In this document: in pieces, positions 1,325-32,421 of the stretch
Numbering within the stretch: the first letter of the stretch is position 1
How the letters are laid out: each line of letters begins with the position of its first letter
Source: Rhodocyclaceae bacterium
GTDB lineage: Bacteria; Pseudomonadota; Gammaproteobacteria; Burkholderiales; Rhodocyclaceae
Direction of reading: 5' to 3'
NCBI GenBank assembly: GCA_028687645.1
Contig: JAQTZQ010000014.1
Location: forward strand, 1 to 40,812
Length of the DNA stretch: 40,812 nucleotides
Made by a program: the position numbers and the translations under genes
The notes under the pieces: model-generated
Databases searched by the model: none
The model's input: only the letters and a program-made list of their open reading frames with translations
Told to the model about the DNA's origin: nothing

Positions 1325-3832
1325 ATGGCGAAAGCGGGATTTTGGAAGTCTGACTGGTTTCTCGGCGTAATGGTTACCCTGTTGATGCTGATCGCCAGCG
1401 GTTCGAGCCTGATTCAGAGTCTTGAGCGGAAGGCTTACGATATGGGGGTTCAAGCATCGAGCCGAACGCCATCGGAGCGTATTGCGGTGATTGCTATCGA
1501 CGATCAGAGCATCGCCAATTTGGGGCGCTGGCCATGGTCGCGCGAACGTCATGCTCGGTTGACCGATTTGCTGGCGGCGTCCAAGGTCAAGGTGATCGGC
1601 AACACCATATTTTTTTCCGAGCCACAACTGGACCCCGGCTATACCTATGTGACCAAACTGATTGAGATTATTAATCAGTCGGTGGTGGAGGGCGGCGAAC
1701 CTTCTCCGGAAGTGGAAAAAATGGCAGCAGTGTTGGCTGAAGCGGAAGTGGCGCTGAATACCGACCGCACGCTGGCCGACAGCTATGGCAAGGCGGGTAA
1801 CGTGGTGTTGCCGCTGATTTTTGAATTGGGCGAAGCACGCGGCAGGCCGGATCAGGCGCTGCCCGCTTTTGTCTCTAAAAATAGTTTGCCGAAAGTGGGT
1901 GAGGGCGATGGTGTTGTTCTGCCCGCCATGCAAGTGCAAATTCCGGTTGAGGTGCTGGGTAGCAAGGCGCTGGCGCTCGGCCATTTGAATTCCAGTCTTG
2001 ATGTCGACGGCGCGGTACGCAGCGAGCCGTTGGTGATTCAGTATTTCGACCAGTATTACCCCTCTCTGGCTTTGATGATCGCTGCGCAGAGTCTCAATTT
2101 GGGGCCAGCAGATACCAAAGTTCGCCTTGGTAGCGAGGTTCGGCTTGGGAAATTGCGTATTCCAACCGATTCAGCCACACGGATGAATACCTTTTTCTAC
2201 AAAGACAGCGAGGCTCGCCCGGCGTTTCAGGTGGATTCGTTTTATGACGTCCTGAGTGGCAAAATTCCGGCCAGTAAATACGCTGGCAAGGTTGTCTTGA
2301 TTGGTGCAACCGCCGCTGGCGTTGGCGCGCCGCAAGTGACGCCAATTTCTCCCTCGATGGCGCCGGTGCTGACACTGGCGCATACGGTGTCCAGTATTTT
2401 GCAAGAGCATTTTTTTGTGACGCCAGGCTGGGGTCTTTGGGCTAGCCTGGGTGCGCTTTTGCTGGTCGGCCTCTACCTGATTCTGCTCTTGCCGCGTTTG
2501 AGTGCCGGCCTTGGTGCCGGCCTCACCTTGCTGCTGCTGGTCATCCTGCTAGGCGCGCATTTTGGTTTGATGGTCGGTATCGGTATGTGGATACAGTTGA
2601 TGGGGGCGGCGAGTTTGCTCGTTGTCGGTCATTTGATGCTGACCACCAAGCGCTTTCTGGTGACCGAGCGCGGCAAGGAGAAGTCAGATCTGGAGTCAGC
2701 TGAATCCAACCGCATGCTGGGTTTGGCGTTTCAGGGGCAAGGCCAGTTGGACATGGCTTTTGACAAGTTCCGCAAATGCCCGCCGGATGAGGGCTTGATG
2801 GAGAATCTCTACAATCTGGCGCTGGATTACGAGCGTAAGCGTCAATTCAACAAGGCTGAGGCGGTTTTTCGTTATGTCGCTGACTTCAATCCGGATTTTC
2901 GTGATGTGCTGAAGCGTGTCAGCCGCGCCAAGCAAATGTCGGAAACGGTGATGCTGGGTGGTAACGCTCATCCGGGGGGCGGCACCATGATCATGGGCGA
3001 TGGTGACATTGAAAAGCCAATGCTGGGCCGCTATCAGCTTGAAAAGGAACTGGGCAAGGGCGCGATGGGGGTGGTTTACCTGGGTCGTGACCCCAAAATC
3101 AATCGCGTGGTAGCGATCAAGACGATGGCGCTGTCGCAGGAGTTTGATGCGGATGAGTTGGTCGACGTCAAAGCGCGTTTCTTCCGCGAGGCAGAGACCG
3201 CCGGGCGACTCAATCATCCCAACATTGTCACTATGTACGATGCCGGTGAGGAGCATGATCTGGCCTACATCGCCATGGAGTTCCTCAAGGGGCGCGATTT
3301 GGTACCGCAGACTAAACCGGGCGGGCTGTTGCCGTTGGCGCAGGTGGTTTCGATCATTGCCAGAGTGGCCGATGCGCTGGATTATGCGCACCAGAACAAT
3401 GTGGTTCACCGCGATATCAAGCCGGCCAACATCATGTATGAACCAACTCAGGATCAGGTCAAGGTAACGGATTTTGGCATTGCTCGGATTACTGATTCCT
3501 CCAAAACCAAAACCGGAATGGTGCTTGGCACGCCCTCCTACATGTCGCCGGAGCAATTGGCGGGCAAGAAAATTGACGGGCGATCTGATTTGTTCTCGTT
3601 GGGTGTGATGCTGTATCAAATGTGTTGCGGTCAACTGCCTTTTACCGGCGAATCCATGGCGCAATTGATGTTCAAGATCGCCAATGAATCGCCGCTCGAT
3701 ATTCATACCATTAACCCTGAGGTGCCGGATAAACTGGTCGCAATCATTAACAAGTTGCTGGTCAAGAATGTGGCCCAGCGTTATCAGCGCGGTTCGGCAT
3801 TAGCTGCCGACTTGCGTGCTACTCTGGTTTAA
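1325..3832 (+). CDS. CHASE2-domain transmembrane Ser/Thr protein kinase
   Basis: This 835-residue membrane-bound kinase is the likely phosphorylation writer of the cluster. An N-terminal transmembrane helix (about 7-25) is followed by a CHASE2 extracytoplasmic sensor domain (about 30-365, with the GRWPW motif). Next come three hydrophobic segments (about 368-440) and a TPR-like helical stretch (about 460-540). A Hanks-type kinase domain fills residues 570-835. All key residues are present: the glycine loop GKGAMGVV, ATP lysine K599 in VAIK, catalytic HRDIKPAN (D697, N702), DFG (D716) and GTPSYMSPEQ in the activation segment. The linker just before the kinase domain carries two TMI/TVM-type threonines that are plausible autophosphorylation sites. 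The ATG has AAGGCGGGG upstream. The PP2C phosphatase gene starts 9 bases downstream. Confidence 0.93.
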   Translation: MAKAGFWKSDWFLGVMVTLLMLIASGSSLIQSLERKAYDMGVQASSRTPSERIAVIAIDDQSIANLGRWPWSRERHARLTDLLAASKVKVIGNTIFFSEPQLDPGYTYVTKLIEIINQSVVEGGEPSPEVEKMAAVLAEAEVALNTDRTLADSYGKAGNVVLPLIFELGEARGRPDQALPAFVSKNSLPKVGEGDGVVLPAMQVQIPVEVLGSKALALGHLNSSLDVDGAVRSEPLVIQYFDQYYPSLALMIAAQSLNLGPADTKVRLGSEVRLGKLRIPTDSATRMNTFFYKDSEARPAFQVDSFYDVLSGKIPASKYAGKVVLIGATAAGVGAPQVTPISPSMAPVLTLAHTVSSILQEHFFVTPGWGLWASLGALLLVGLYLILLLPRLSAGLGAGLTLLLLVILLGAHFGLMVGIGMWIQLMGAASLLVVGHLMLTTKRFLVTERGKEKSDLESAESNRMLGLAFQGQGQLDMAFDKFRKCPPDEGLMENLYNLALDYERKRQFNKAEAVFRYVADFNPDFRDVLKRVSRAKQMSETVMLGGNAHPGGGTMIMGDGDIEKPMLGRYQLEKELGKGAMGVVYLGRDPKINRVVAIKTMALSQEFDADELVDVKARFFREAETAGRLNHPNIVTMYDAGEEHDLAYIAMEFLKGRDLVPQTKPGGLLPLAQVVSIIARVADALDYAHQNNVVHRDIKPANIMYEPTQDQVKVTDFGIARITDSSKTKTGMVLGTPSYMSPEQLAGKKIDGRSDLFSLGVMLYQMCCGQLPFTGESMAQLMFKIANESPLDIHTINPEVPDKLVAIINKLLVKNVAQRYQRGSALAADLRATLV

Positions 3833-3841
3833 GGAAATGGA

Positions 3842-4663
3842 ATGAAGCTCTCGGATGTACTGGAAGTGGTCACCTGCACCGATCCAGGGATGCTACGTTC
3901 GCATAATGAAGATGCGGTTTTTGGCGAGGCGGATCTCGGTCTGGTTATTTTGGCCGATGGCATGGGTGGCTACAACGCGGGAGAGGTTGCAAGCGGTATG
4001 GCCACCACCTTGCTGGCTACCAATTTTTCACAGCTCATCCCGCTAAGTGAGCCCTCGCAACCAGCGCTTTACGGCGGTTTTCAGGCGCATCGGATTATTG
4101 TCGATCAGATTACTGATGCCAATTCGGCTATTTTCAACGCGGCGCAAAGCCAGCCCCAATATGCCGGTATGGGAACGACGTTGGTGCTCGGCTGGTTCTA
4201 TGATAACCGTCTGACCGTAGCGCATATCGGGGATTCGCGCTTGTATCGATTGCGTGACGATCGCTTCGAACAACTAACTAAAGACCATTCACTTTTACAA
4301 GAACAGCTGGATAGTGGCATGATTAGCGCTGAGGATGCTCGTTACTCGCAAAACAAGAATCTGGTAACGAGAGCGCTGGGGGTTGAGTCTGAAGTTGAGC
4401 CGGAAATAAATGATTTTGAGGTGCTCCCGGGCGATCTGTTTTTGCTCTGTTCGGATGGATTGAATGACATGGTCGACCATGAAGAAATCGGCATGACCTT
4501 GCAGGCACTAGGCTCAAATCTTGGCTTGGCGGCGGATCAGTTGGTGCAAATGGCGAACGATAATGGTGGACGGGATAACATCTCGGTGATTTTGGTCAAG
4601 GTCAAGGGCGATTACGCCGCCCCCAAGGGGTGGTGGCGAAAGCTGCTATCGGGGCTCAAGTAA
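3842..4663 (+). CDS. PP2C-family Ser/Thr protein phosphatase
   Basis: This is a soluble 273-residue PPM/PP2C phosphatase, the predicted eraser for the adjacent kinase. The metal-binding aspartates of the family are in their usual motifs: RSHNED (D24), ADGMGG (D39), CSDGL (D205) and GRDN (D245). GMGTT and the HIGDSR strand are also present. The length fits the minimal bacterial class (Stp1/PppA type), with only a short basic tail beyond the catalytic core. It is preceded by an AGGA site overlapping the kinase stop region, so the two are almost certainly co-translated. Kinase/PP2C/FHA triplets also occur in type VI secretion loci, but none of that machinery is visible here. Confidence 0.93.
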   Translation: MKLSDVLEVVTCTDPGMLRSHNEDAVFGEADLGLVILADGMGGYNAGEVASGMATTLLATNFSQLIPLSEPSQPALYGGFQAHRIIVDQITDANSAIFNAAQSQPQYAGMGTTLVLGWFYDNRLTVAHIGDSRLYRLRDDRFEQLTKDHSLLQEQLDSGMISAEDARYSQNKNLVTRALGVESEVEPEINDFEVLPGDLFLLCSDGLNDMVDHEEIGMTLQALGSNLGLAADQLVQMANDNGGRDNISVILVKVKGDYAAPKGWWRKLLSGLK

Positions 4664-4687
4664 GGCAAGGTATTTAGGAAAGTTAAT

Positions 4688-5380
4688 ATGGCAAAACTGA
4701 TACTTTCAATGGATGGGCTGGTGCTCAAGGAGATTCCGCTCAACAAGGAGCGCATCACCATTGGGCGCAAGCCGCATAATGATATTCAAATAGATAATCT
4801 TGCGATTTCCGGCGAACACGCGGCGATAGTGACGATCCTCAACGATTCTTTTCTTGAGGATATGAACAGCACAAATGGCACCCTCGTGAATGGACAGGCC
4901 GTAAAAAAGCATTTTTTGCGTAATCTCGATGTGGTTGAGCTGGGCAAGTACAAGCTCAAATACATGAGCGATATCCCCAGTACAGGTGCGTCACAGGCTG
5001 ATTTCGAAAAAACCATGATTTTGCGCCCGGGGGTCAACAAGGCGCCGGAGCAGATGCGCAGCTTTACCGACACACAGACAGGATTATCCAAAGCAGCCCC
5101 AGCCCCAGCGGCTTCTCTTTCTGCGGCGATTCAATTACTGAATGGTGGCAATGTTGGCAAAGAGCTTGAACTCACCAAAACCTTGACCACGCTTGGCAAG
5201 CCGGGGGTTCAGGTCGCTGTTATTGCCCGGCGCCCGCATGGCTTCTTTATTACCCATGTTGAGGGAACCCAATTCCCGGTGGTGAACGGTGAGGTGTTGG
5301 ATGCTCAGGCACATCAACTCAAGGATCACGATGTCATTGAGATTGCCGGTATCAAAATGGAATTTTTCCTCAAGGCCTGA
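4688..5380 (+). CDS. FHA-domain protein with a second, degenerate FHA-like half
   Basis: This 230-residue protein is a predicted phosphothreonine reader. The N-terminal FHA domain (about 1-95) keeps the core binding residues: GR at 26-27, S41, H44, NSTNGT at 60-65 and N68. A linker contains EKTMIL with T109, a good candidate target for the neighbouring kinase. The C-terminal half (about 140-230) repeats the FHA strand pattern, ending in VNGEVLDAQ and HDVIEIAG. It lacks the GR...S..H signature, having LGKPG in place of IGR, so it probably no longer binds phosphothreonine. The gene sits 24 bases after the phosphatase and 18 before the cyclase, with AGGAAA as ribosome site. It is likely an adaptor that carries the phosphorylation signal to a target. 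Confidence 0.9.
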   Translation: MAKLILSMDGLVLKEIPLNKERITIGRKPHNDIQIDNLAISGEHAAIVTILNDSFLEDMNSTNGTLVNGQAVKKHFLRNLDVVELGKYKLKYMSDIPSTGASQADFEKTMILRPGVNKAPEQMRSFTDTQTGLSKAAPAPAASLSAAIQLLNGGNVGKELELTKTLTTLGKPGVQVAVIARRPHGFFITHVEGTQFPVVNGEVLDAQAHQLKDHDVIEIAGIKMEFFLKA

Positions 5381-5398
5381 CGGCCTGCCAAGGATGCC

Positions 5399-7612
5399 GT
5401 GAAAAAAAACTTTACTCGCTTTCTGCTCGGCGTATTTTGTGTCCTTGCTTTTGTCGGCCATGCCGGGCGTGTCTGGGAAATCCCTTTTGTATCCGTACTT
5501 GATGCCTATCTTTATGATGCCCGCTTGCGTCTGACAATGCCGGGCACGGTCGATGACCGTGTCGTGATCGTCGATCTGGATGAAAAAAGCCTGGCCGAGG
5601 TTGGACGCTGGCCTTGGGGCCGGAATGTGCTGGCCGAGTTGGTTACGCGCCTGGTTGATGACTACAAGGTGGCGATCGTCGGTTTCGACGTGGTTTTTGC
5701 CGAGCCGGATGAAAGCTCTGGTTTGCGGGTGCTGGAGGATATTGGTCAGCGGCAGCTCAAGGGTGAGCCGGCATATCAAAAAGCCTTGCAGGGCTTACGC
5801 AGTAGCTTGAATTATGATCAGTTGTTCGCTGACACCTTGCGTGGTCGACCGGTAGTTTTGGGCTATTATTTTTCCAACCTGACGAATGCAGCGAAAAGTG
5901 GTGCCTTGCCGCAACCGGTTTTTGCCCCCGGCAGCTTTCAGGGGCGTCCGGAGCAGGTGGTCAGCTGGAAGGGATTTGGCGGCAATCTGCCTGTATTGCA
6001 AAATGCCGCACAGAGTGCCGGACATTTCAATCCACTGGTTGATTTCGACGGCAACTCCCGCCGTGTGCCGATGATTGTGTCTTACGGCGGCGCATATTAC
6101 GAGTCGCTCTCACTGGCGGTGGTACGTACACTGATCGGCAACACGCAGTTGCAGCCCGGCTATCCCGATCAATCCGGCGGCATGGAGTGGTTGGCAGTAA
6201 TCGGAGGTGATCGTGAAATAAAAATTCCGGTCGATGATTCGGTCGCTGCCTTGATTCCTTATCGTGGACGGGAGCGCAGCTTTCCATATATTTCTGCAGT
6301 TGATGTCCTGAAAGGCCGTGCCGACAAGGCGCAACTCGATGGTCGTATCGTCCTGGTCGGAACCACCGCTCCCGGCCTGATGGACTTGCGGGCGACGCCG
6401 GTTGGTTCAACTTACCCAGGGGTGGAGGTTCATGCCAATCTGGTTGCGGGCATCCTTGATGGGAGTATCAAGGAAAGGCCGGGTTACATTGTCGGGATTG
6501 AAGCGCTCAAACTGATCCTGCTTGGTGGATTGCTGGCCTTTATTTTGCCGCAACTTTCACCTATCCGCGCCTCACTACTTACTGCAGTAGTGTTAATCAC
6601 CATTGTCGGATTGAACTTTAGTTTGTGGTCCTCGGCCAATCTGTCCTTGCCGCTGGCTTCCGGGATATTGCTGACATTGCTGCTCTTTGCGCTCAACATG
6701 TCTTGGGGCTATTTTGTCGAATCGCGTACCAAACGTCAGTTCACTGAACTGTTTGGACAATACGTGCCGCCTGAGCTGGTTGATGAAATGGCGCGCGACC
6801 CACAGGCGTACAGCATGGCGGGGCGCAATGTCGAATTGACTGTCCTGTTTTCTGATGTGCGCGGTTTTACCAATATTTCCGAGGGATTGGATCCGCAGGA
6901 ATTATCACAGTTGATGAATGAGTACCTGGGGGCGATGACTGCAGTGATCCGTAAAAATCGCGGCACGCTGGACAAGTATATGGGCGATGCAATCATGGCA
7001 TTCTGGGGCGCACCGGTGGCCGATTCCGATCATGCACAGCACGCGGTGTTAACCGCCATTGCCATGCAGAAAGAGCTAAAAATGCTGGCTGAGCCTTTCC
7101 GTGTCAGAGGTTGGCCAGAATTGCATATCGGTGTCGGTGTCAATACCGGCATGATGACCGTAGGCGATATGGGCTCGCCGGTGCGCAAGGCCTATACGGT
7201 GATGGGTGATGCGGTCAACCTGGGTTCGCGACTTGAAAGTATTACCAAGCAATATGGAGTTGGAATTATTGTCGGGCCGCAAACGCGTGATTTGCTGAAG
7301 GATCAGGTAGTGTTCCGCGAACTGGACAAGGTTCGGGTGAAAGGTAAAGATGAGCCAGTGGCGATTTATGAGCCTTTGGGGCTGGTTGATGATGTGTCGG
7401 TGGATGCTTTGGCTCATCTCAAAACATGGCAGCACGCCTTGCGACTTTACCGTGCACAGGATTGGGAGCAGGCTGAATTGCAGTTCTACAATCTGAGTCG
7501 ACTGGCGCCTGAATCCAAGCTTTTCCAACTGTATCTGGCGCGTGTGGCGCACTGGCAAAAAGAACCGCCCGGCGCTGACTGGGATGGCGTAACCACCTTC
7601 GAGACCAAGTAA
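5399..7612 (+). CDS. CHASE2-domain transmembrane class III adenylate cyclase
   Basis: This 737-residue membrane cyclase begins with a signal-anchor helix, then a CHASE2 sensor domain (about 25-350, again with GRWPW). Hydrophobic segments at about 368-440 precede a class III cyclase catalytic domain at about 477-655. The metal aspartates are D486 (FSDVRGFT) and D530 (KYMGDA). The transition-state pair is N607 and R611 (AVNLGSRLE). The purine-selecting positions are K526 and T600 (YTVMGD); the Lys/Thr pair is found in many bacterial adenylate cyclases, so cAMP is the predicted product. A TPR-like tail closes the protein. The start is GTG with AAGGA upstream. Its sensor is paralogous in layout to that of the kinase in the same operon, so both enzymes may read related periplasmic signals. 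Confidence 0.92.
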   Translation: MKKNFTRFLLGVFCVLAFVGHAGRVWEIPFVSVLDAYLYDARLRLTMPGTVDDRVVIVDLDEKSLAEVGRWPWGRNVLAELVTRLVDDYKVAIVGFDVVFAEPDESSGLRVLEDIGQRQLKGEPAYQKALQGLRSSLNYDQLFADTLRGRPVVLGYYFSNLTNAAKSGALPQPVFAPGSFQGRPEQVVSWKGFGGNLPVLQNAAQSAGHFNPLVDFDGNSRRVPMIVSYGGAYYESLSLAVVRTLIGNTQLQPGYPDQSGGMEWLAVIGGDREIKIPVDDSVAALIPYRGRERSFPYISAVDVLKGRADKAQLDGRIVLVGTTAPGLMDLRATPVGSTYPGVEVHANLVAGILDGSIKERPGYIVGIEALKLILLGGLLAFILPQLSPIRASLLTAVVLITIVGLNFSLWSSANLSLPLASGILLTLLLFALNMSWGYFVESRTKRQFTELFGQYVPPELVDEMARDPQAYSMAGRNVELTVLFSDVRGFTNISEGLDPQELSQLMNEYLGAMTAVIRKNRGTLDKYMGDAIMAFWGAPVADSDHAQHAVLTAIAMQKELKMLAEPFRVRGWPELHIGVGVNTGMMTVGDMGSPVRKAYTVMGDAVNLGSRLESITKQYGVGIIVGPQTRDLLKDQVVFRELDKVRVKGKDEPVAIYEPLGLVDDVSVDALAHLKTWQHALRLYRAQDWEQAELQFYNLSRLAPESKLFQLYLARVAHWQKEPPGADWDGVTTFETK

Positions 7613-7614
7613 GC

Positions 7615-8382
7615 ATGAAACTCAGAATTCTCGGTTGTAGCGGCGGTATCGGCGGCATGCATTTACGTACGACCTCGATGCTGATTGATCACGATATTCT
7701 GATCGATGCGGGTACCGGGGTCGGTGATTTGTCTATTGCCGAGTTGGCGGTCATTGACCATGTGTTCATCAGTCATACCCACCTCGATCACATCGCTTCG
7801 CTGCCTTTGATGCTCGACACAGTTGCTGATCGGCGCAACAAGCCCTTGGTGGTTTATGGCACCGAGGCGGTGATTACGATCCTGAAAAATCACATTTTCA
7901 ACTGGTCAATTTGGCCGGATTTCTCTGAAGTGCCTAGTATCGACAAGCCTTTTTTGCGCTACCAAGCCATTGCGGTACAGCAGCCGGTGTCGCTCGGAAC
8001 GCGAACCATCACTGCGCTACCTGTTGAGCACACTGTGCCGGCGGTTGGTTATTGCATTGACTCTGGTACTGCCAGCCTGGTTTTTTCTGGCGACACCGGG
8101 TGTTGCAATGCCTTCTGGCGCGCGGTCAATCGTATTCCCAATCTGCAACACTTGATCATCGAATGTGCCTTCTCAAATCTTGAGGAACGCCTGGCCGTGG
8201 TTTCTAAACATTTGTGTCCCCGCATGCTGGCATCCGAGTTGCAAAAGCTGGAGCAGGACTGTGAAATTCACATTACTCACCTTAAACCAGGGCAAATCGA
8301 GCTGACCATGGAAGAAATTGCCAGCTGCCTGGGTGAATTCAAGCCCAAAATGTTACAAAACAATCAGGTTTTTGAGTTTTAA
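7615..8382 (+). CDS. MBL-fold class II cyclic-nucleotide phosphodiesterase-like hydrolase
   Basis: This 255-residue metallo-beta-lactamase-fold protein starts 2 bases after the cyclase stop. The metal motif HTHLDH is at residues 54-59, with further ligands H139 (VEHTVP), D160 (SGDTG) and H222 (ITHLKPG). The arrangement of motifs, including IIECAF and the late ITHLKP, resembles class II 3',5'-cyclic-nucleotide phosphodiesterases (CpdP/PDE1 type) rather than lactamases or tRNase Z. Placement directly behind an adenylate cyclase supports cAMP hydrolysis. Substrate identity is inference, since related MBL proteins of unknown substrate exist. There is no signal peptide, so it should act in the cytoplasm. 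The ribosome site is weak, which suggests translational coupling to the cyclase. Confidence 0.8.
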   Translation: MKLRILGCSGGIGGMHLRTTSMLIDHDILIDAGTGVGDLSIAELAVIDHVFISHTHLDHIASLPLMLDTVADRRNKPLVVYGTEAVITILKNHIFNWSIWPDFSEVPSIDKPFLRYQAIAVQQPVSLGTRTITALPVEHTVPAVGYCIDSGTASLVFSGDTGCCNAFWRAVNRIPNLQHLIIECAFSNLEERLAVVSKHLCPRMLASELQKLEQDCEIHITHLKPGQIELTMEEIASCLGEFKPKMLQNNQVFEF

Positions 8383-8383
8383 A

Positions 8384-9436
8384 ATGACCCTCGTTGACAA
8401 TGTTTTCAACCGCCTGGAACCCATTCGCGGGCTTTCCGAAAGCCGCCTGCGTGAGTTGGCCAGCTTGTGCCGCCCGGAAAAATTTGCAATTGGTAGCGAT
8501 CCCTTACGGTCGACCTCCCCGAGTGGCCAATTTTTTTACCTGATCGCAGGTGAACTCAGCACCTTGCTTAGCGATGGCAGTCGTCGTGTCATGGTCGGTG
8601 GGTGCGATATGGCCAATTGGCCAATCGGTTACCAGACCGTATTGCCGGTGAGTAGCAAGGCAATTACCGAGGTTGAAATCCTGAAGGTGGATTTTGACCT
8701 GCTTGACATCATGATGACCTGGGATGAGCTCGCTTCTGCTGCCACTACCAAGCCAGTCTCTGAAAAAGCGGCCGATTGGAGCACGATGACCGGGGCTTTC
8801 AATGCGCAGGCGCTGACTTCAGGTTGCCTTGCCCGGTTGCCGCCGGCACACATTCATGAATTGCTTGCGCGTTTTGAGCGTATCAAGACCAAAAAAGGTC
8901 AGGTCATCATTCGCGATGGCGAAATTGGCGACTCCTATTATCTCATTGAGTCAGGGCGCTGCGAAGTCAGCAAATCGCTCGGCGGGGCGCAGATTGTGTT
9001 GGCGCAATTGCGTGCTGGCGATGGTTTTGGTGAGGAGGCCCTGGTTGCGGAGGTGCCGAGAAATGCCACGATTACCATGAAGACCGATGGTGTCGTCTTG
9101 CGTCTAACCAAGCCAGATTTCATTGAACTTTTACGTGCCCCTTTGTTGCATGCTATCGAGTTCGACGAAGCGGCACTCAAGGTGGCTCGCGGCGAGGCTT
9201 TATGGCTCGATATCCGTTACGCCGCCGAGTTTGCGCAGGATGGCTTGCCGGGCGCGCTTAATATTCCGCTCAACGAGATCCGCAGCGCTTTCAATCTGCT
9301 CGATAAAGACAAGGAATACATCGTCTATTGCCATAGTGGTCGGCGCAGCTCGGCGGCGGCATTTTTGTTGGCACAGTATGGACTCAAGGCTGTCTGGCTC
9401 AATGGCGGTCTTGTCGCATCACTCAAGCCGCTATGA
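8384..9436 (+). CDS. Cyclic-nucleotide-binding protein with C-terminal rhodanese domain
   Basis: This 350-residue protein is a predicted cAMP reader. Two cNMP-binding folds lie at about 15-105 and 145-255, followed by a rhodanese domain at about 265-350. The second fold has an intact phosphate-binding cassette (FGEEAL with E217, then PRNAT with R226). The first lacks both the Glu and the Arg, so it is probably structural. The rhodanese loop CHSGRRS keeps the sulfur-carrying cysteine C316. I chose the ATG one base after the phosphodiesterase stop; a longer frame exists upstream but would lie inside that gene. There is no DNA-binding domain, so this is not a CRP-type transcription factor. The stop overlaps the next start by four bases. 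Confidence 0.88.
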   Translation: MTLVDNVFNRLEPIRGLSESRLRELASLCRPEKFAIGSDPLRSTSPSGQFFYLIAGELSTLLSDGSRRVMVGGCDMANWPIGYQTVLPVSSKAITEVEILKVDFDLLDIMMTWDELASAATTKPVSEKAADWSTMTGAFNAQALTSGCLARLPPAHIHELLARFERIKTKKGQVIIRDGEIGDSYYLIESGRCEVSKSLGGAQIVLAQLRAGDGFGEEALVAEVPRNATITMKTDGVVLRLTKPDFIELLRAPLLHAIEFDEAALKVARGEALWLDIRYAAEFAQDGLPGALNIPLNEIRSAFNLLDKDKEYIVYCHSGRRSSAAAFLLAQYGLKAVWLNGGLVASLKPL

Positions 9437-11757
9437 GTGATGTCGCCAGCCGTCTGGTCTTTCTGAAGAATCTTCAGGATGTCACCAATAAGATTCATGC
9501 GACCCATAACATCGACGAAATCATGCTCGCCTTGTCGCAGGATATCTGCAACCTGTTCAATGCGGATCGCCTGACCATTTACGTCATGGGCGAAGATGGG
9601 CAGTCGGTTGTTTCCAAGGTCAAGACCGGGCTCAATTCGTTCAAGGATATCCGACTGCCGATTTCGGAACACAGTATTGCTGGCTATGTAGCGGCAAGTA
9701 AATCGGTCGTCAATGTGAGCGACGTCTACGACGAGATTGAGCTTAAGCAATACAGTCCCAACATGCGTTTTTTACGCGAGGTGGACAAGCGTACCGGATA
9801 TCGTTCCAAGCAGATGCTGGTAACGCCTGTGCTCAATGCCGAGGGTGAATTGCTGGGCGTGCTTCAACTGATTAATCACAAAACTGGCGCCCCTTTTTCT
9901 GAATATCAAATCGAGGGTGCGGGTGAGTTGGCCAAAACCTTGGCGATTGCCTTTGCCCAACGCCAGAAGGCACCGTTTGTCGTGCGCTCCAAATACGACT
10001 ATCTGATTGCCGACGGTGTGCTGGCGAGCGGTGAAATGGATCTTGCAATTCGCGCTGCGCGGCAAAAAGGTCTGGATCTCGAAGTGGTGTTGGTCAATGA
10101 ATTTTCGCTTAAGCCAGCCACCATTGGCGCTGCACTAAGCCGCTTTTTTGCTGTGCCCTATGAGCCTTTTCGCGCCGAGCGACTGAAGCCGGTGGAGCTT
10201 TTGCGTAATATCAAGCGGGAATATGTGGATGAAAGTTCATGGCTCCCGCTTGAGGAAACGCAAGAAGGTTTGGTACTGATGACGCCTGACCCGGAACGAC
10301 TGCGCAATTCGCGCATCGTCAATAATATTTTTCCCAAGGCAAAAATCACCTACCGGGTCACGACCCTGCGCGAATTCACTGCTACGGTCGACCAGTTTTT
10401 TGGTGCCATTTCTGACCTTGGTTCGGTCAACGATTTGTTGTCGGACATGAAGGAAAGCGAGGATGGCGCCGAGGTTACTGACGAAGTCAGCGCTGAGTCG
10501 GATAACGAGTTGGTGCGCTTGGTCAATAAAATTATTGTCGAGGCTTACCAGCAAGGCGCTTCGGATATTCATATCGAGCCGCGTCCGGGCAAGGACAAAA
10601 CCATCATCCGCTTTCGCAAGGACGGTTCGCTGGTTAATTACATTGAGATTCCTGCCGCTTATCGCTCATCGCTGATCACCCGAATCAAGATCATGTGCGA
10701 TCTCGATATTTCGGAAAAGCGCCGTCCGCAGGATGGCAAGATCAAGTTCAAGAAATACGGCCCGCTGGATATTGAATTGCGCGTCGCCACCATTCCGACG
10801 GCTGGCGGTGTTGAAGATGTGGTGATGCGGATTTTGGCGGCTGGAGAGCCGATCAAGCTTGATCAGCTCGGCTTGGCGCCACGTAACCATGAAAACCTGA
10901 TTAAGTGCGTTGAAAAGCCCTACGGCCTGTTCTTCGTGTGCGGCCCGACCGGTTCAGGAAAAACCACCACGCTGCACTCGGTGCTTGGTTACTTGAATCG
11001 TCCAGAGACCAAAATCTGGACCGCTGAAGATCCGGTTGAGATCACCCAAAAAGGCTTGCGCCAGGTGCAGGTTAACAAAAAGGCTGGCCTCGATTTTGCG
11101 ACAGTGATGAAGGCCTTTTTGCGCGCCGATCCTGACATCATCATGGTTGGCGAAATGCGCGACCCGGAAACGACGGGTATCGGTATCGAAGCCTCGCTCA
11201 CCGGCCACCTGGTTTTTGCGACGCTGCACACCAATTCAGCGACTGAATCCATCATCCGTCTGCTCGACATGGGCATGGACCCCTTCAATTTTGCTGATGC
11301 GCTGTTGGGGATTCTGGCGCAGCGCCTGGGCAAGCGCCTGTGTAAGGAATGCAAGGTTGCCTATGAGCCCAGCGCTGATGAAATCAAGCAACTACTCCAC
11401 GAATACAGCGAAGAGCTGACCAATACAAATGCCTGGAAAAATAACCCGCAAGGGTCTCTGGAGGCGATTCAGCAGGAATGGCTGAGTCGCTACGCCAAAA
11501 ACGGAAAATTTACCCTCTATCGCGCCAAAGGCTGCCCGACTTGCAGCGATAGCGGTTACAAAGGCCGGGTCGGTCTGCATGAATTGCTGGTTGGTACAGA
11601 TCCGGTCAAAAAGCTGATTCAGGAGAAAGCGCGGGTGGCGGAAATTCTCGCCTGCGCCCTCAATGAAGGGATGCGTACCCTGAAAATGGATGGCATCGAG
11701 AAAGTGATGCAAGGCATTACCGATATCAAACAAGTGCGTGCAGTTTGCATTAAATAG
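9433..11757 (+). CDS. GAF-domain GspE/PulE-type secretion or pilus ATPase
   Basis: This 774-residue ATPase is related to the type II secretion and type IV pilus assembly motors. It has an N-terminal GAF sensor domain (about 15-180), then a T2SSE_N/MshEN-like domain (about 190-340) and the catalytic region (about 360-774). The Walker A motif GPTGSGKT has K510. The Walker B region DPDIIMVGEMRD spans D566 to E574. The zinc-binding pairs are C637/C640 and C701/C704. The GAF domain has a TGYRS...GVLQLIN stretch of the type seen in cyclic-nucleotide-binding GAF domains. The two RLG-type c-di-GMP contact motifs of MshEN domains are not recognisable. No secretin, pseudopilin or inner-membrane platform gene lies nearby, so its partner machine is encoded elsewhere or it has a regulatory role. 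Confidence 0.9.
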   Translation: MSDVASRLVFLKNLQDVTNKIHATHNIDEIMLALSQDICNLFNADRLTIYVMGEDGQSVVSKVKTGLNSFKDIRLPISEHSIAGYVAASKSVVNVSDVYDEIELKQYSPNMRFLREVDKRTGYRSKQMLVTPVLNAEGELLGVLQLINHKTGAPFSEYQIEGAGELAKTLAIAFAQRQKAPFVVRSKYDYLIADGVLASGEMDLAIRAARQKGLDLEVVLVNEFSLKPATIGAALSRFFAVPYEPFRAERLKPVELLRNIKREYVDESSWLPLEETQEGLVLMTPDPERLRNSRIVNNIFPKAKITYRVTTLREFTATVDQFFGAISDLGSVNDLLSDMKESEDGAEVTDEVSAESDNELVRLVNKIIVEAYQQGASDIHIEPRPGKDKTIIRFRKDGSLVNYIEIPAAYRSSLITRIKIMCDLDISEKRRPQDGKIKFKKYGPLDIELRVATIPTAGGVEDVVMRILAAGEPIKLDQLGLAPRNHENLIKCVEKPYGLFFVCGPTGSGKTTTLHSVLGYLNRPETKIWTAEDPVEITQKGLRQVQVNKKAGLDFATVMKAFLRADPDIIMVGEMRDPETTGIGIEASLTGHLVFATLHTNSATESIIRLLDMGMDPFNFADALLGILAQRLGKRLCKECKVAYEPSADEIKQLLHEYSEELTNTNAWKNNPQGSLEAIQQEWLSRYAKNGKFTLYRAKGCPTCSDSGYKGRVGLHELLVGTDPVKKLIQEKARVAEILACALNEGMRTLKMDGIEKVMQGITDIKQVRAVCIK

Positions 11758-11765
11758 GAGTGACC

Positions 11766-13349
11766 ATGGAAACGCCGGACGATCTTTTTCAGCGCCTCGA
11801 ACAACTCAACGATATCGGTGCGTCGCTATCCAATGAGCGCAATCTGGACCGCCTGCTGGAAAAAATTCTTATGGCCGCCAAAACGATTACGCGGGCTGAT
11901 GGCGGGACGCTCTATCTGGTTTCCGATGACCGGCAGCGCTTGCATTTTCAGATTGTGCGCACCGATTCGCTCAATATTGCCTTTGGCGGTACCAGCGGCC
12001 AGCCGGTTTCTGGCAAGTTTCCGGATCTGCTGCTATTCAAACCCGATGGCGAACCTAACACCACCATGGTTGCGGTCGACGCCGTTATTGGCAAGAAAAC
12101 CATCAACATTGCCGACGCCTACTGCGCCGAAGGCTTTGACTTTTCCGGTACGCGCAAATTTGATGAGCGCACCGGTTATCGCTCGCAGTCCTTTCTTACC
12201 GTGCCGATGCAAAATCACGAAGGCGAAATTATCGGCGTTCTGCAACTGATCAACGCGCAGGCGGGCGATGGACAGGTTGAGGCATTCACCCGGGCTGACC
12301 AGCAGCTTGCCGAATCGCTCGCCTCGCAAGCCGCCATTGCCTTGACCAACCGTCAACTGGTGGCGCAGCTTGAGGAACTGTTCGAGTCCTTCATTAAAAT
12401 GATCAACTCGGCAATTGACGAAAAATCCCCTTATACCGGCGGCCATTGCCAGCGCGTGCCTGAACTGACGATGATGTTGGCTGAGGCGGTGAACGCCACC
12501 ACGGAAGGGCCGCTCGCTGACTTTCAGCTGACGGAAAAAGATCGTTACGAATTACGTATTGCGTCATTGATGCACGACTGCGGCAAAGTCACGACGCCGG
12601 TTCATGTGGTCGATAAGGCAACCAAGCTGCAAACGATTTACGATCGGATTCACATTGTTGATACCCGTTTCGAGGTACTCAAGCGGGATGCAGAAGTGCG
12701 CTTGTGGCAGAAAATTGCGCAAGGTGCCGAACGGGTGGTGGCTGAAAATGAATTTGCCACCTTCTGTCAGCAATGTGATGCTGATCGGGATTTTCTGCGT
12801 AAAGCCAATGTCGGTGGCGAACGGATGCGCGACGAAGATATTGAGCGCGTCAAACAGATCGGCCAGCAATACCGTTGGCGTAATGTGGACGGTGAGGATG
12901 CGCCGTTCCTGACCGAGAATGAACTTGAAAACCTGACTATTCGCGCTGGCACGCTGACTGGCCCGGAGCGCCAGATTATCAATCACCACATCGTGGCGAC
13001 GATCAAAATGCTGGAACAACTACCGTGGCCCAAACATCTCAAAAATGTCCCTGAATACGCGGGCGGACATCACGAGCGCATGGACGGCAAGGGCTACCCG
13101 AAAGGGCTGAAACGCGAAGAGATGAGCTGGCAGGCGCGGATGATGGGCATTTCTGATATTTTTGAGGCGCTGACGGCGAAAGATCGTCCCTATAAAGATG
13201 GGATGAAGTTATCGCAAGCGCTCGGCATTCTTGAAAATTTCAAAAAAAACGGCCACATCGATCCGGATTTGCATGCGATTTTTGTCAAATCAGAGGTTTA
13301 CCGCGACTACGCGGCCCAATTCCTCGGGCCGCAGCAAATCGATTGTTGA
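11766..13349 (+). CDS. GAF-HD-GYP domain protein, predicted c-di-GMP phosphodiesterase
   Basis: This 527-residue soluble protein has an N-terminal GAF domain (about 10-200) and an HD-GYP domain (about 210-510). Catalytic motifs are present: HDCGK (H270, D271), NHH, and HHERMDGKGYPKGL (H435, H436, GYP at 443-445). HD-GYP proteins hydrolyse c-di-GMP, usually to GMP. About 100 extra residues lie between HDCGK and HHE compared with the compact HD-GYP core. The GAF domain shares the TGYRS...GVLQLIN signature with the GAF of the preceding ATPase, which suggests a common ligand. A GTG two codons upstream is possible, but the ATG at 11766 is preferred because AGGAG ends five bases before it. It ends the cluster, three bases from the convergent pgm gene. 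Confidence 0.9.
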   Translation: METPDDLFQRLEQLNDIGASLSNERNLDRLLEKILMAAKTITRADGGTLYLVSDDRQRLHFQIVRTDSLNIAFGGTSGQPVSGKFPDLLLFKPDGEPNTTMVAVDAVIGKKTINIADAYCAEGFDFSGTRKFDERTGYRSQSFLTVPMQNHEGEIIGVLQLINAQAGDGQVEAFTRADQQLAESLASQAAIALTNRQLVAQLEELFESFIKMINSAIDEKSPYTGGHCQRVPELTMMLAEAVNATTEGPLADFQLTEKDRYELRIASLMHDCGKVTTPVHVVDKATKLQTIYDRIHIVDTRFEVLKRDAEVRLWQKIAQGAERVVAENEFATFCQQCDADRDFLRKANVGGERMRDEDIERVKQIGQQYRWRNVDGEDAPFLTENELENLTIRAGTLTGPERQIINHHIVATIKMLEQLPWPKHLKNVPEYAGGHHERMDGKGYPKGLKREEMSWQARMMGISDIFEALTAKDRPYKDGMKLSQALGILENFKKNGHIDPDLHAIFVKSEVYRDYAAQFLGPQQIDC

Positions 13350-29295: not shown

Positions 29296-32200
29296 GTGAA
29301 AAATACGATGAAATCAAATTTTAAAAAATGCACCGTGGCGCTTGCCGTGGCGTCATGTCTTACCTTGACACCATGGATTGCTGAGGCAGCCGGGTTGGGG
29401 AGAATTACCGTGTTGTCCGGGCTTGGGCAGCCGTTGCGTGCGGAGCTTGAGGTCAATGCTTCGAGTGCCGAAACAACAGCGATGACGGCTCGGCTTGCTC
29501 CGCAAGAGGCGTTTCATCAGGCTGGTATCGATTATGCCTCGGCACTTCAGGACTTGCGTTTTTCGGTTGAAAAACGTCGTGGTGGTCAGGTCGTTATCAG
29601 GGTAAGTTCATCCAAGCCGGTGAACGAGCCATTCCTTGATTTTTTGGTCGAACTCAACTGGCCCGCAGGCCGGCTGGTTCGTGAATACACTTTTTTGCTT
29701 GACCCGCCGGAGATTGCCGCCAAGTCGGCGACACGGATGGTCAATACAGCGGATGCCAAAGTGGTTCAAACGATACCTGGAGGTGGCAATGACGCTGCGT
29801 CGCGTCGAGAACCTCCACCCGTGTCAGCACCCCGGCCGCTAGCACAAAATCAGACTAAGTCGTTGTCTGGTGGTGATACTCACTTGGTCCAAAGTGGCGA
29901 GACGCTGCGCAAAATTGCGCTTGAGACCATGCCCGAGGGGGTGTCGCTTGAGCAGATGTTGGTCGGCTTGTACAACAGTAATCCGGAAGCTTTCATTGGC
30001 AAAAATATCAACCGATTGAAAGCCGGTGTAATTCTTGATATCCCTGACCGGGCAACAGTCTCGGCTGTGCCGCAGTCTGAAGCACGCAAGATTTATGTCG
30101 CACAAGCCAACGACTGGAATGCCTATCGTCAGAGACTGGCGAGTGTCGCCGCTCAAGGGCCAGCCAAGCAAGATAGTGGAGGACAGTCCTCTTCTGGCAA
30201 AATTGCGCCCAAGGTTGAGGAGAAGACGACGCCCCTTGATCTGTCCAAGGATCAGGTGAAAGTTTCCCGTACTGAACTGGCTTCCCAGACCAAGACTTCA
30301 GCTGCGGTGGCTGAGAACAACATAGCTAAAGAAAAGGGACTGAAAGACGCGCAGGATCGACTGGCTCAACTGGAAAAAAACGTTAGCGACTTACAAAAAC
30401 TGCTTGAAGCAAAAAATCAAAAGTTGGCTGAGTTACAAAATCAAGCCGATCCGAAGAAGGAAGGCCTTAAGCCGGCCGCAGTGCCTATTGTTGCTTCCAC
30501 GGCAGCGATTGAGGTTGAGAAGCCTGTTGAGGCAACTAAACCACCCGTTGAAGCACCACTTCCAGAGCCAACGAAGGTTGTCGAGCCTCCTCCCAAGCCA
30601 ATAGAAGCGGTCAAGCCGCCGGAGCCACCCAAAAAAGTTGAGCTGCCTCAATCTGAGCCAGAGCCCGAGCCAGGTTTTGTCGACGAATTGCTCGATGATC
30701 CGCTTCCATTGGCAGGCGGTGCTGCGATCCTTGCTTTGTTGGGTGGGTATTTCTTTGCCAAGCGGCGGCGTCAAAATGCGCCAGCGGAGACCACTGCGGC
30801 GCCAGGGCCATCAAGCTTGGGACCGAATTCAGTATTTCGCATGACCGGCGGGCAGAGTGTCGATACTGGCAACACACCGCCGCAAACGGGTGATTTTAGT
30901 CAGACTGGCCCCGGCACCATCGATACCGATGAGGTTGATCCGGTTGCAGAGGCGGATGTTTACATGGCCTATGGTCGTGATGCGCAAGCGGAAGAGATTC
31001 TGATTGAGGCTTTGCAGAAGGATCCGCAAAGAACCGCCATTCACGCCAAGTTGCTGGAGATTTACGCCAACCGCAAGAGCTTGAAGCAATTTGAAACATT
31101 GGCCAGTGAGTTGTACGGACAAACGGGCGGCCATGGTTCCGAATGGGCCAAGGTGGCTGCACTTGGGGCTGGGCTCGATCCTCAAAATCCTTTGTATTCA
31201 TCTGCTCACGGTACGAGCCCGGCGGCCTTTGATGCCGATGCGACAATGATTGTTTCGCCTGATACCGTCAAGTCCACGCTGGCAGTTTCAGCCGGCCTGC
31301 TGGCACAGGCAGCGGTTGCCGAACCCTCGGTTGATGACACTTTTGTCGGACAGGCGCCGGAACCTGATTTGGCGGACGATGCTTTGCTAATGCAGTTTTC
31401 GGGAGAGCCTGATATTCCGCTCGATGTGCCTGTAGAGCCCACGGTTGCGGTCGACGACGTAATGAGCCTGGATTTTGATCTGGGCTCAACCAATGTCGAG
31501 CCTGATCGTCCGCAGGTTCTTGATCCTCAGTCTGAACCCGAGTTCGTCAGAACGATTGCTACCGCTGATTCCAACGCTCTGGATTTCGATCTGGGCATGG
31601 ATTCCGAACCTTCACCAGAAGAAATGGCGAACGAGCCGCTTCCTCAGTCTCTGGATCAACTGGATAGCGAAATTATCGATTTTGATATTGGTGCGGCAAC
31701 CAGCGTGGGTGCTGAATCCTTGGAGCCGGACTCGACCGCTAGCCCTGATTTCTCTCCCGCCGGGACCTTGGTCATGCCAGGTCTGGATAGCTTGACCAGT
31801 ACGTTTGTGGGCAACGAAACGTCGGTGTCCAGTGAGGACATGCTTGATTTTCAGACGCCCTCTGAGCCCGATATGTTGGCTGAGCCTGAAATGGCACCAT
31901 TGGTTGATTTTGATCTGGCGACAGAGGCCGATCCCTCATCCGCCACCGTAGTGAATCCAGATGCATTACGCATGGTGATGGATGAGCCATTTGAGACATC
32001 TGTTCAGCAGCCGCCATCTGAACCGATGGTGGATGAGGATGAATCGCTGGAGTTTGACGTCAGTCTTACTGACTCTGCCGTGCTGGGTGGGCTGATGGCG
32101 ACACCAAGTTACGATATCGGGTCGATCAATCTTGATTTGTCAGCAGATGAGCCGGTAGAGTCGACTGCCACTGAGCCTCCTGCATTTGAAATCAACGAGC

Positions 32201-32421
32201 CAGCCCCTATTTCTGAGGCACTTCCGGATATGGCGCCGCCGGCATCTGAGTTTTCTGATGCTCTGCGTGAGGAGGTCAGCACCAAGTTGGATCTTGCCAA
32301 GGCCTATGAGGAAATGGGCGACCTTGAAGGCGCGCGAGAATTGCTCCTGGAGGTTCAGCACGAAGGTCCGCTGGATCTGGTCGAGCAGGCCCGAGAGATT
32401 TTGGGGCGCATAGGCGAGTAG
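29296..32421 (+). CDS. fimV: FimV/HubP-family polar landmark protein
   Basis: This 1041-residue inner-membrane protein marks cell poles and supports type IV pilus assembly and twitching in relatives. A signal peptide ends near residue 31 (IAEA/AGLG). A FimV N-terminal domain (about 32-140) contains GRITVLSGLGQPLRAEL. A LysM peptidoglycan-binding domain lies at about 195-265, followed by a coiled coil (about 345-385), a proline-rich spacer and one transmembrane helix (about 470-492). The long acidic cytoplasmic part has at least four DFDhG-like motifs and ends in the TPR-like FimV C-terminal domain (DLAKAYEEMGDLEGARELL). The GTG start has GGGTGG upstream; an in-frame ATG at 29308 is an alternative. 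The asd-fimV-truA order is common in proteobacteria. Confidence 0.93.
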   Translation: MKNTMKSNFKKCTVALAVASCLTLTPWIAEAAGLGRITVLSGLGQPLRAELEVNASSAETTAMTARLAPQEAFHQAGIDYASALQDLRFSVEKRRGGQVVIRVSSSKPVNEPFLDFLVELNWPAGRLVREYTFLLDPPEIAAKSATRMVNTADAKVVQTIPGGGNDAASRREPPPVSAPRPLAQNQTKSLSGGDTHLVQSGETLRKIALETMPEGVSLEQMLVGLYNSNPEAFIGKNINRLKAGVILDIPDRATVSAVPQSEARKIYVAQANDWNAYRQRLASVAAQGPAKQDSGGQSSSGKIAPKVEEKTTPLDLSKDQVKVSRTELASQTKTSAAVAENNIAKEKGLKDAQDRLAQLEKNVSDLQKLLEAKNQKLAELQNQADPKKEGLKPAAVPIVASTAAIEVEKPVEATKPPVEAPLPEPTKVVEPPPKPIEAVKPPEPPKKVELPQSEPEPEPGFVDELLDDPLPLAGGAAILALLGGYFFAKRRRQNAPAETTAAPGPSSLGPNSVFRMTGGQSVDTGNTPPQTGDFSQTGPGTIDTDEVDPVAEADVYMAYGRDAQAEEILIEALQKDPQRTAIHAKLLEIYANRKSLKQFETLASELYGQTGGHGSEWAKVAALGAGLDPQNPLYSSAHGTSPAAFDADATMIVSPDTVKSTLAVSAGLLAQAAVAEPSVDDTFVGQAPEPDLADDALLMQFSGEPDIPLDVPVEPTVAVDDVMSLDFDLGSTNVEPDRPQVLDPQSEPEFVRTIATADSNALDFDLGMDSEPSPEEMANEPLPQSLDQLDSEIIDFDIGAATSVGAESLEPDSTASPDFSPAGTLVMPGLDSLTSTFVGNETSVSSEDMLDFQTPSEPDMLAEPEMAPLVDFDLATEADPSSATVVNPDALRMVMDEPFETSVQQPPSEPMVDEDESLEFDVSLTDSAVLGGLMATPSYDIGSINLDLSADEPVESTATEPPAFEINEPAPISEALPDMAPPASEFSDALREEVSTKLDLAKAYEEMGDLEGARELLLEVQHEGPLDLVEQAREILGRIGE

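Follow-up and report, generated by a model that had tools for sequence, protein, structure and literature searches.

A conserved eight-gene signalling cluster in Rhodocyclaceae with a pilus-type motor ATPase as candidate cAMP receptor

Introduction

What is the output of a gene cluster in which enzymes of Ser/Thr phosphorylation, cyclic AMP (cAMP) and cyclic di-GMP (c-di-GMP) signalling stand next to a PulE/PilB-type motor ATPase, and by which signal could that motor be reached? This question is raised by eight genes at positions 1325–13349 of contig JAQTZQ010000014.1 from a Rhodocyclaceae bacterium (assembly GCA_028687645.1). The stretch analyzed, hereafter the window, is the entire contig (C88, 40,812 bases) of the 310-contig assembly. 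All eight open reading frames (ORFs) of the cluster lie on the + strand, and they are separated by 9, 24, 18, 2, 1, −4 and 2 bases. Thus, an earlier reading of the sequence alone, which had described eight co-directional genes with gaps of at most 24 bases, was borne out. In gene order, the Pfam domains are CHASE2 and protein kinase; PP2C; FHA; CHASE2 and class III cyclase; Lactamase_B_2/PDEase_II, i.e., a metallo-β-lactamase (MBL) fold; cNMP_binding, i.e., a cyclic-nucleotide-binding (CNB) domain, and rhodanese; GAF, MshEN and T2SSE; and GAF and HD_5 (HD-GYP). The two CHASE2 domains, the rhodanese domain and the MshEN domain had not been named in the sequence-only reading.

The reading preferred here, with a probability of roughly 45%, is that a phosphothreonine and cAMP signalling operon tunes an accessory extension motor of the type IV pilus type, with cAMP likely acting on the GAF domain of the motor. 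The motor as candidate cAMP receptor is the most interesting point of this analysis and had been absent from the sequence-only reading.

The GAF and MshEN-like domains of the motor ATPase

The ATPase and its two N-terminal domains were annotated as follows:
9433..11757, + strand: GAF, MshEN-like and PulE/PilB-type ATPase protein, 774 aa (Pfam T2SSE 2.1e-115; 385.8 bits, cut-off 24.9)
9511..9951, + strand: GAF domain of the ATPase, candidate cAMP receptor (profile match to CyaB2, 1ykd, 1.1e-33)
9985..10167, + strand: MshEN-like domain without c-di-GMP motif (motif positions replaced)

Among profiles of solved structures, the GAF domain matched CyaB2 best (1.1e-33), followed by the HD-GYP protein PmGH (2.6e-17) and then by the phosphodiesterases PDE5, PDE10 and PDE2. 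In CyaB2, the ligand of GAFb is contacted by R291, T293, I308, D356 and N359 (PMC4411481). These residues align with R46, T48, V63, D118 and T121 of the ATPase. In 146 ATPase sequences, R46, D118 and Q145 were invariant (146/146), T48 was kept in 143 and T121 in 144, and position 63 was hydrophobic in most. Moreover, R46, T48, D118, T/S121 and Q145 were kept in 8/8 homologues from outside the order. The genome itself gave 12 GAF matches, and the signature D-x-x-T-G-Y-R ... Q-L-I-N was seen only in the two of the cluster when the alignment was inspected by eye. In the second of these, the GAF domain of the HD-GYP protein, the position of the pocket Arg is occupied by Gly (97/115) or Ala (18/115). 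Judged from these sequence comparisons, cAMP is probably a ligand of this GAF domain in the ATPase.

Two observations speak for caution. First, the NKFDE signature is partial; only N148 (146/146) and F155 (145/146) are kept, and the last position is Glu in 108 of 146 sequences, the window not being among them. Second, a fold comparison, limited to the GAF region, ranked the GAF domains of ptsP first and favoured no cyclic-nucleotide GAF; the full-length model was poor over the motor domain. Both would be expected if the ATPase were a motor output that does not bind cAMP, its GAF domain sensing another small ligand or only dimerizing, and the CNB-rhodanese protein being the sole reader of cAMP. 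This alternative is rather unlikely, since the CyaB2-type pocket is near-invariant within and outside the order; the distribution of cyclase and CNB genes also bears on it and is given below.

The domain behind the GAF was considered as a second input. MshEN receptors of c-di-GMP carry two RLGxx...LxxxLxxQ motifs (PMC5013675), and no exact match to them was present in the 146 ATPases. Since seven paralogues in the same genome were also without an exact match, the exact pattern cannot by itself serve as a control. At the level of single positions, the first position of motif I was never Arg among the counts listed, with RLG replaced by [TS]K[YF]; Gln-24 was replaced by Ala in 143/146; and an invariant Glu217 stands at the Gly of motif II. 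The MshEN-like domain was rejected as a c-di-GMP reader because the residues of the binding motif are replaced. It is, with some hesitation and at less than even odds, proposed that cAMP gates a motor ATPase of the type IV pilus type directly via a CyaB2/PDE-type GAF domain. This domain would replace the lost c-di-GMP input of MshEN, and the motor would be wired to a dedicated cyclase, a phosphodiesterase and a phosphothreonine relay in one operon.

Conservation and spread of the cluster

Besides the window, 160 loci were fetched: 20 from a first sample of relatives, the 80 best-scoring of 579 relatives, and 60 from a 300-genome sample of the order (mostly one genome per genus). One locus without a full ATPase and nine duplicates were left out, yielding 151 distinct loci. 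Counts refer to the 113 loci (window included) with at least 8.7 kb upstream and at least 1.9 kb downstream, and the presence of genes was scored by profile-based search.

The order of the members present was kept in all 113 loci, and usual neighbours stood at median distances of 1 to 56 bases, while the flanking genes changed: the upstream neighbour OCD was present in 16 of 100 loci, the downstream PGM in none of 105 and a MutL-like gene in two. Thus, when the eight-gene order was followed across genomes, as the sequence-only reading had suggested, a conserved unit and not a set of scattered neighbours was found. The cluster is genuine and inherited as a module. All eight genes were present in 44 loci and all but the CNB gene in 22, together 66 of 113. 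The sample is skewed toward close relatives, as 33 of the 44 complete loci came from the best-scoring 80, seven from the first relatives sample, one was the window and only three were among the 49 loci of the wider order sample.

Individual members differed in frequency (kinase 73, PP2C 93, FHA 92, cyclase 78, MBL 101, CNB 48 and HD-GYP 88 of 113), and nine loci were reduced to MBL and ATPase genes and seven to the ATPase alone. Uncorrected for kinship, the CNB gene co-occurred with the cyclase in 47/48 loci, the kinase with PP2C and FHA in 73/73, and the cyclase with MBL in 77/78. The MBL gene was also present in 24 of the 35 loci without cyclase. A loose signalling island that is kept by common descent and has no shared output would be in line with these reduced sets and with the few complete loci (3/49) of the wide sample. 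However, the order kept in 113/113 loci, the short gaps and the changed flanks argue against it, as does a rearranged locus outside the order that still groups four of the genes (see below), so that such an island is considered highly improbable.

In the 300-genome sample, the GAF-MshEN part of the ATPase was detected (E ≤ 1e-25) in 117 genomes (own included), representing 57 of 139 genera and 31 families; the matches in genomes G083 and G096 are fragments or broken. The first relatives sample contained an orthologue in 20 of 59 other genomes, with 62–84% identity. Only 7 of 35 genomes of the own genus possessed it, which indicates that loss is common. Most named relatives of the ATPase come from assemblies of Rhodocyclaceae, Azonexaceae and Burkholderiales, and the nearest among the best 80 of 579 was in a Dechloromonas bin (81% across the N-terminal part); the order sampled is accordingly likely to be Burkholderiales as defined by GTDB. 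Two loci (L128, L133) are labelled Bordetella parapertussis; this label may be wrong, and match scores group both with environmental Burkholderiales bins. In genome G331, the GAF-ATPase gene occurs twice (L179 and L180); one copy is accompanied by every cluster gene except CNB, and the other stands alone.

In a sample of the class, only 9 of 275 other genomes gave a match, the eight longer ones at 26–32% identity, and eight of the nine were fetched with flanks. One of these (L272/L277), from another order, combined within about 13 kb a CHASE2-cyclase (820 bits), an HD-GYP protein (798), an MBL protein (308) and a GAF-ATPase (759) in a different gene order and on both strands; no kinase, PP2C, FHA or CNB match was found there. 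Since these four genes stay together in another arrangement, their association does not depend on the layout typical for the order. The other seven loci showed no partner gene within the fetched stretch. In a plasmid search limited to 5000 records, the ten matches listed were all distant and of PilB type, the best having 38% identity over 75% of the query.

The motor and its association with type IV pili

The ATPase has the hallmarks of the PilB/GspE-type superfamily (T2SSE): K510, E532, E574 and H599 (Walker A, acidic and His boxes) as well as C637, C640, C701 and C704 (four-Cys site) were present in 146/146 sequences. The protein scored below the curated cut-offs for both PilB (TIGR02538, 482.4 versus 675.65 bits) and GspE (TIGR02533, 443.5 versus 630.25 bits). 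The genome contains six platform genes, each adjoining another T2SSE gene and, in this fragmented assembly, none on the contig of the ATPase; with no platform gene beside it, the ATPase is indeed an orphan, as it had been called from the sequence alone. PilB and TfpB, both above cut-off, and two GspE proteins above cut-off are encoded in the same genome, which may therefore run PilB, TfpB and the GAF-ATPase together. This TfpB, on G000:C40 (L004; 896 versus 850 bits), is a second ATPase with no platform gene on its contig.

PilQ, the type IV pilus secretin, was scored with TIGR02515 at E ≤ 1e-100, a threshold set by the author; at the cut-off of the family itself, 241 of 300 genomes are positive. 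Of the 117 genomes with the GAF-ATPase, 114 had PilQ, compared with 121 of the 183 lacking the ATPase (Fisher 2e-12). Such an association would be expected of a motor that assists type IV pili, although kinship and genome size are confounding factors. The three exceptions were G065, G083 and G307. In G083, a fragment of the GAF-ATPase gene (G083:C28:27989-28447; 241-aa frame) and a weak best PilQ match (8.7e-80) were found, and both genes may have decayed together. The window also contains a FimV-like gene (29296-32421, + strand; FimV N-terminal domain 4.9e-41), about 16 kb downstream of the cluster on the same contig. In other bacteria, FimV regulates type IV pili.

Service to another pilin-based machine (type II secretion or a minor pilus), or regulation by competition for the platform, would accord with scores under both cut-offs and with several machines, six platform genes and two GspE proteins in the genome. 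The strong PilQ association and the higher score for PilB than for GspE argue against it, and this possibility is regarded as unlikely.

Predicted enzymes and reader of cAMP

Three genes upstream of the ATPase are expected to make, degrade and read cAMP:
5399..7612, + strand: CHASE2 sensor and class III adenylate cyclase, 737 aa (Pfam CHASE2 2.9e-56, Guanylate_cyc 2.4e-23)
7615..8382, + strand: MBL-fold protein, probable cyclic-nucleotide phosphodiesterase, 255 aa (metal-ligand residues, sequence matches)
8384..9436, + strand: cyclic-nucleotide-binding and rhodanese protein (cNMP_binding 5.5e-22, Rhodanese 4.3e-14)

The cyclase residues D486, K526, D530, D604, N607 and R611, which we take to be the metal-binding Asp pair, the adenine-specifying Lys/Asp and the Asn/Arg, were present in 101/101 sequences. 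The cyclase domain matched models of PycC (Pycsar; best 6.2e-29) and the CNB domain weakly matched TIR-effector models; neither a TIR nor a membrane effector domain was found by the Pfam scan of the cluster. The Pycsar-like matches of the cyclase led to a possible function in defence being considered.

The MBL protein kept H54, H56, D58, H59, H139, D160 and H222 (HxHxDH motif and the His, Asp and His ligands) in 130/130 sequences, a pattern that is common to RNase Z and thus unspecific. By E-value, YhfI and yeast PDE1 were the two best solved-structure sequence matches, and Apyc1 and RNase Z were also matched; YhfI and Apyc1 are presumably cyclic-nucleotide phosphodiesterases. The structure model (pLDDT 89.2) gave a tie among phosphodiesterases and RNase Z in the fold comparison, and the protein scored below the curated cut-offs of NF041851 (45.7 versus 400 bits) and RNase Z (TIGR02651, 71.1 versus 292.95 bits). 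A function as cAMP eraser is plausible from these sequence features. That the protein is instead an RNA or other nucleotide hydrolase working with the ATPase is doubtful, in view of its two best matches, the additional match to Apyc1 and its near-constant retention in loci with a cyclase.

For the CNB-rhodanese gene, the ORF list gives a TTG start at 8318, and the in-frame ATG at 8384 was adopted. E239, R248 and C338 (numbered from the TTG) were invariant in 68/68 sequences. Pfam at E ≤ 0.001 identified only cNMP_binding and Rhodanese, i.e., no DNA-binding helix-turn-helix. At its usual place between the MBL and ATPase genes, locus L050 has two ORFs (449 and 544 aa) without match to genes of the cluster.

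The distribution of these genes bears on whether the motor binds cAMP. Among 28 genomes with a cyclase-less locus, a CHASE2-cyclase of at least 43% identity was encoded elsewhere in 11 and was absent from 17, in which the GAF-ATPase nevertheless persists; this favours a GAF domain that does not respond to cAMP. Of these 17, 14 were examined, and every one has a match to some class III cyclase, marginal in a single case; G014 makes a fifteenth genome. Conversely, the CNB gene is absent from 65/113 loci, 31 of which have the cyclase and would be left without any reader in the cluster if the CNB-rhodanese protein were the only one.

The phosphothreonine genes and the HD-GYP protein

The remaining features of the cluster are:
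1325..3832, + strand: CHASE2 sensor, TPR-like region and Ser/Thr kinase, 835 aa (Pfam CHASE2 5.6e-51, Pkinase 2e-57)
2945..2947, + strand: Thr541 in the kinase linker, candidate phosphothreonine tag E-T-V-x-L (Thr 77/80, Leu at +3 79/80)
3842..4663, + strand: PP2C-type phosphatase, 273 aa (NCBIfam Stp1, 246.7 bits, passing the cut-off of 230)
4688..5380, + strand: FHA-domain protein, 230 aa (Pfam FHA 5e-20)
5012..5014, + strand: Thr109 in the FHA protein, candidate phosphothreonine tag E-K-T-M-x-L (Thr 107/111)
11760..13349, + strand: GAF and HD-GYP phosphodiesterase, 529 aa (Pfam HD_5 1.4e-41)

Active-site residues were intact throughout. The kinase K599, H695-R-D and D716-F-G were invariant in 80/80 orthologues; D39, D131, D205 and D245 of the phosphatase in 109/109, with D14 (91/109) as the exception; and G26, R27, S41, H44, S61, N63 and G64 of the FHA protein in 111/111. 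FHA domains favour Thr with Leu at +3, and both Thr541 and Thr109 have this form. A scan for such a Thr/Leu+3 tag with a preceding acidic residue found none in the other six families of the cluster. It is inferred from sequence that Thr541 and Thr109 serve as phosphothreonine tags.

PpkA, PppA and Fha are the kinase, PP2C phosphatase and FHA protein that control type VI secretion, and the cluster has the same set of three. It differs from that system in that the Pfam matches of the 20 scanned ORFs of the window included no family of type VI secretion and in that its FHA protein scored below the cut-off for TagH (TIGR03354, 37.1 versus 120.25 bits); the absence of type VI secretion genes noted in the sequence-only reading thus held.

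The HD-GYP protein kept H229, H272, D273, K276, H410, H437, H438 and D466 in 115/115 sequences, and likewise the HD pair and HHExxDGxGYP (P447 in 114). H409, present in 72/115, is not the aligned metal His. Compared with PmGH, the protein has an insertion of about 100 residues (approximately 292-393) that separates its HD part from its GYP part. No GGDEF domain was detected by Pfam in the eight proteins. The idea that each signal has a writer, an eraser and a reader therefore does not hold for c-di-GMP, for which only the eraser (HD-GYP) is present, with no GGDEF domain and the MshEN motif lost.

Proposed mechanism and comparison with known systems

In the preferred reading, the CHASE2 domains of kinase and cyclase would probably sense related envelope signals. 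Kinase and PP2C phosphatase would set the phosphorylation of two conserved Thr tags, one in the linker of the kinase and one in the FHA protein, and the FHA domain would read tags of this kind. The cyclase would produce cAMP and the MBL protein would probably degrade it. In lineages that carry it, the CNB-rhodanese protein would read cAMP, which most likely would also bind the PulE-type ATPase at its GAF domain, thereby gating the motor directly. Without a platform of its own, the motor would probably use the pilus platform shared with PilB, similar to TfpB in Acinetobacter. The HD-GYP protein would lower c-di-GMP or a related dinucleotide, and the cAMP state may thus alter c-di-GMP. It is plausible that the motor is under three signals; we infer that the machine is a pilus and which direction the effect takes.

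TfpB is described as an accessory type IV pilus extension ATPase of A. baylyi (PMC8213720) and so exemplifies a pilus served by an additional extension motor without a platform of its own (PMC8213720; PMC11656802). Like TfpB, the cluster ATPase is of the extension type, its gene lies away from any platform gene, and PilB is present in the same genomes. It belongs, however, to another subfamily, the genome having a separate TfpB, and the available description of TfpB includes neither a GAF domain nor a signalling operon. With MshE and PilB proteins whose MshEN domain binds c-di-GMP (PMC5013675), it shares an MshEN-like fold segment and cyclic-nucleotide control via the N-terminal domain, as proposed here; it differs by the lost c-di-GMP motif and by the GAF domain added in front. 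CyaB2 and the PDE2, PDE5 and PDE10 GAF domains are its best solved-structure profile matches with aligned pocket residues; unlike in these, NKFDE is only partly kept and the effector is a motor ATPase.

The Chp-CyaB-Vfr system of Pseudomonas also ties cAMP signalling to type IV pili, and in the available part of the review the action of cAMP is ascribed to the transcription factor Vfr (PMC11656802). In contrast, the CNB protein of the cluster carries a rhodanese and no Pfam DNA-binding domain. The second-messenger inputs to pilus motors known from that part are c-di-GMP on the motor or cAMP via transcription (PMC11656802), and the word 'GAF' is absent from the text of the review. No description of the cluster was found in open-licence PMC papers, where searches returned either nothing or papers that, judged by title and abstract, deal with other subjects. 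If the preferred reading is true, a motor with its own cAMP-type GAF domain, together with phosphothreonine and c-di-GMP enzymes, would show how three signalling currencies meet at one machine. The operon, widely kept and apparently undescribed, would become testable in environmental isolates, e.g., Azospira oryzae and Methyloversatilis universalis.

Other features of the cluster and the window

Promoter-like matches occurred at chance level (10 versus 8.9 ± 3.3 in shuffles) and give no support for co-transcription. Terminator-like sites numbered 31 (18.6 ± 4.4 in shuffles), none among those listed lying between the HD-GYP stop at 13349 and position 13663. A search for fusions between genes of the cluster, which would have been direct evidence, gave none; the long MBL ORFs that overlap the cyclase gene are extensions in another frame. 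The whole genome has three CHASE2 domains, and the cluster holds two of them.

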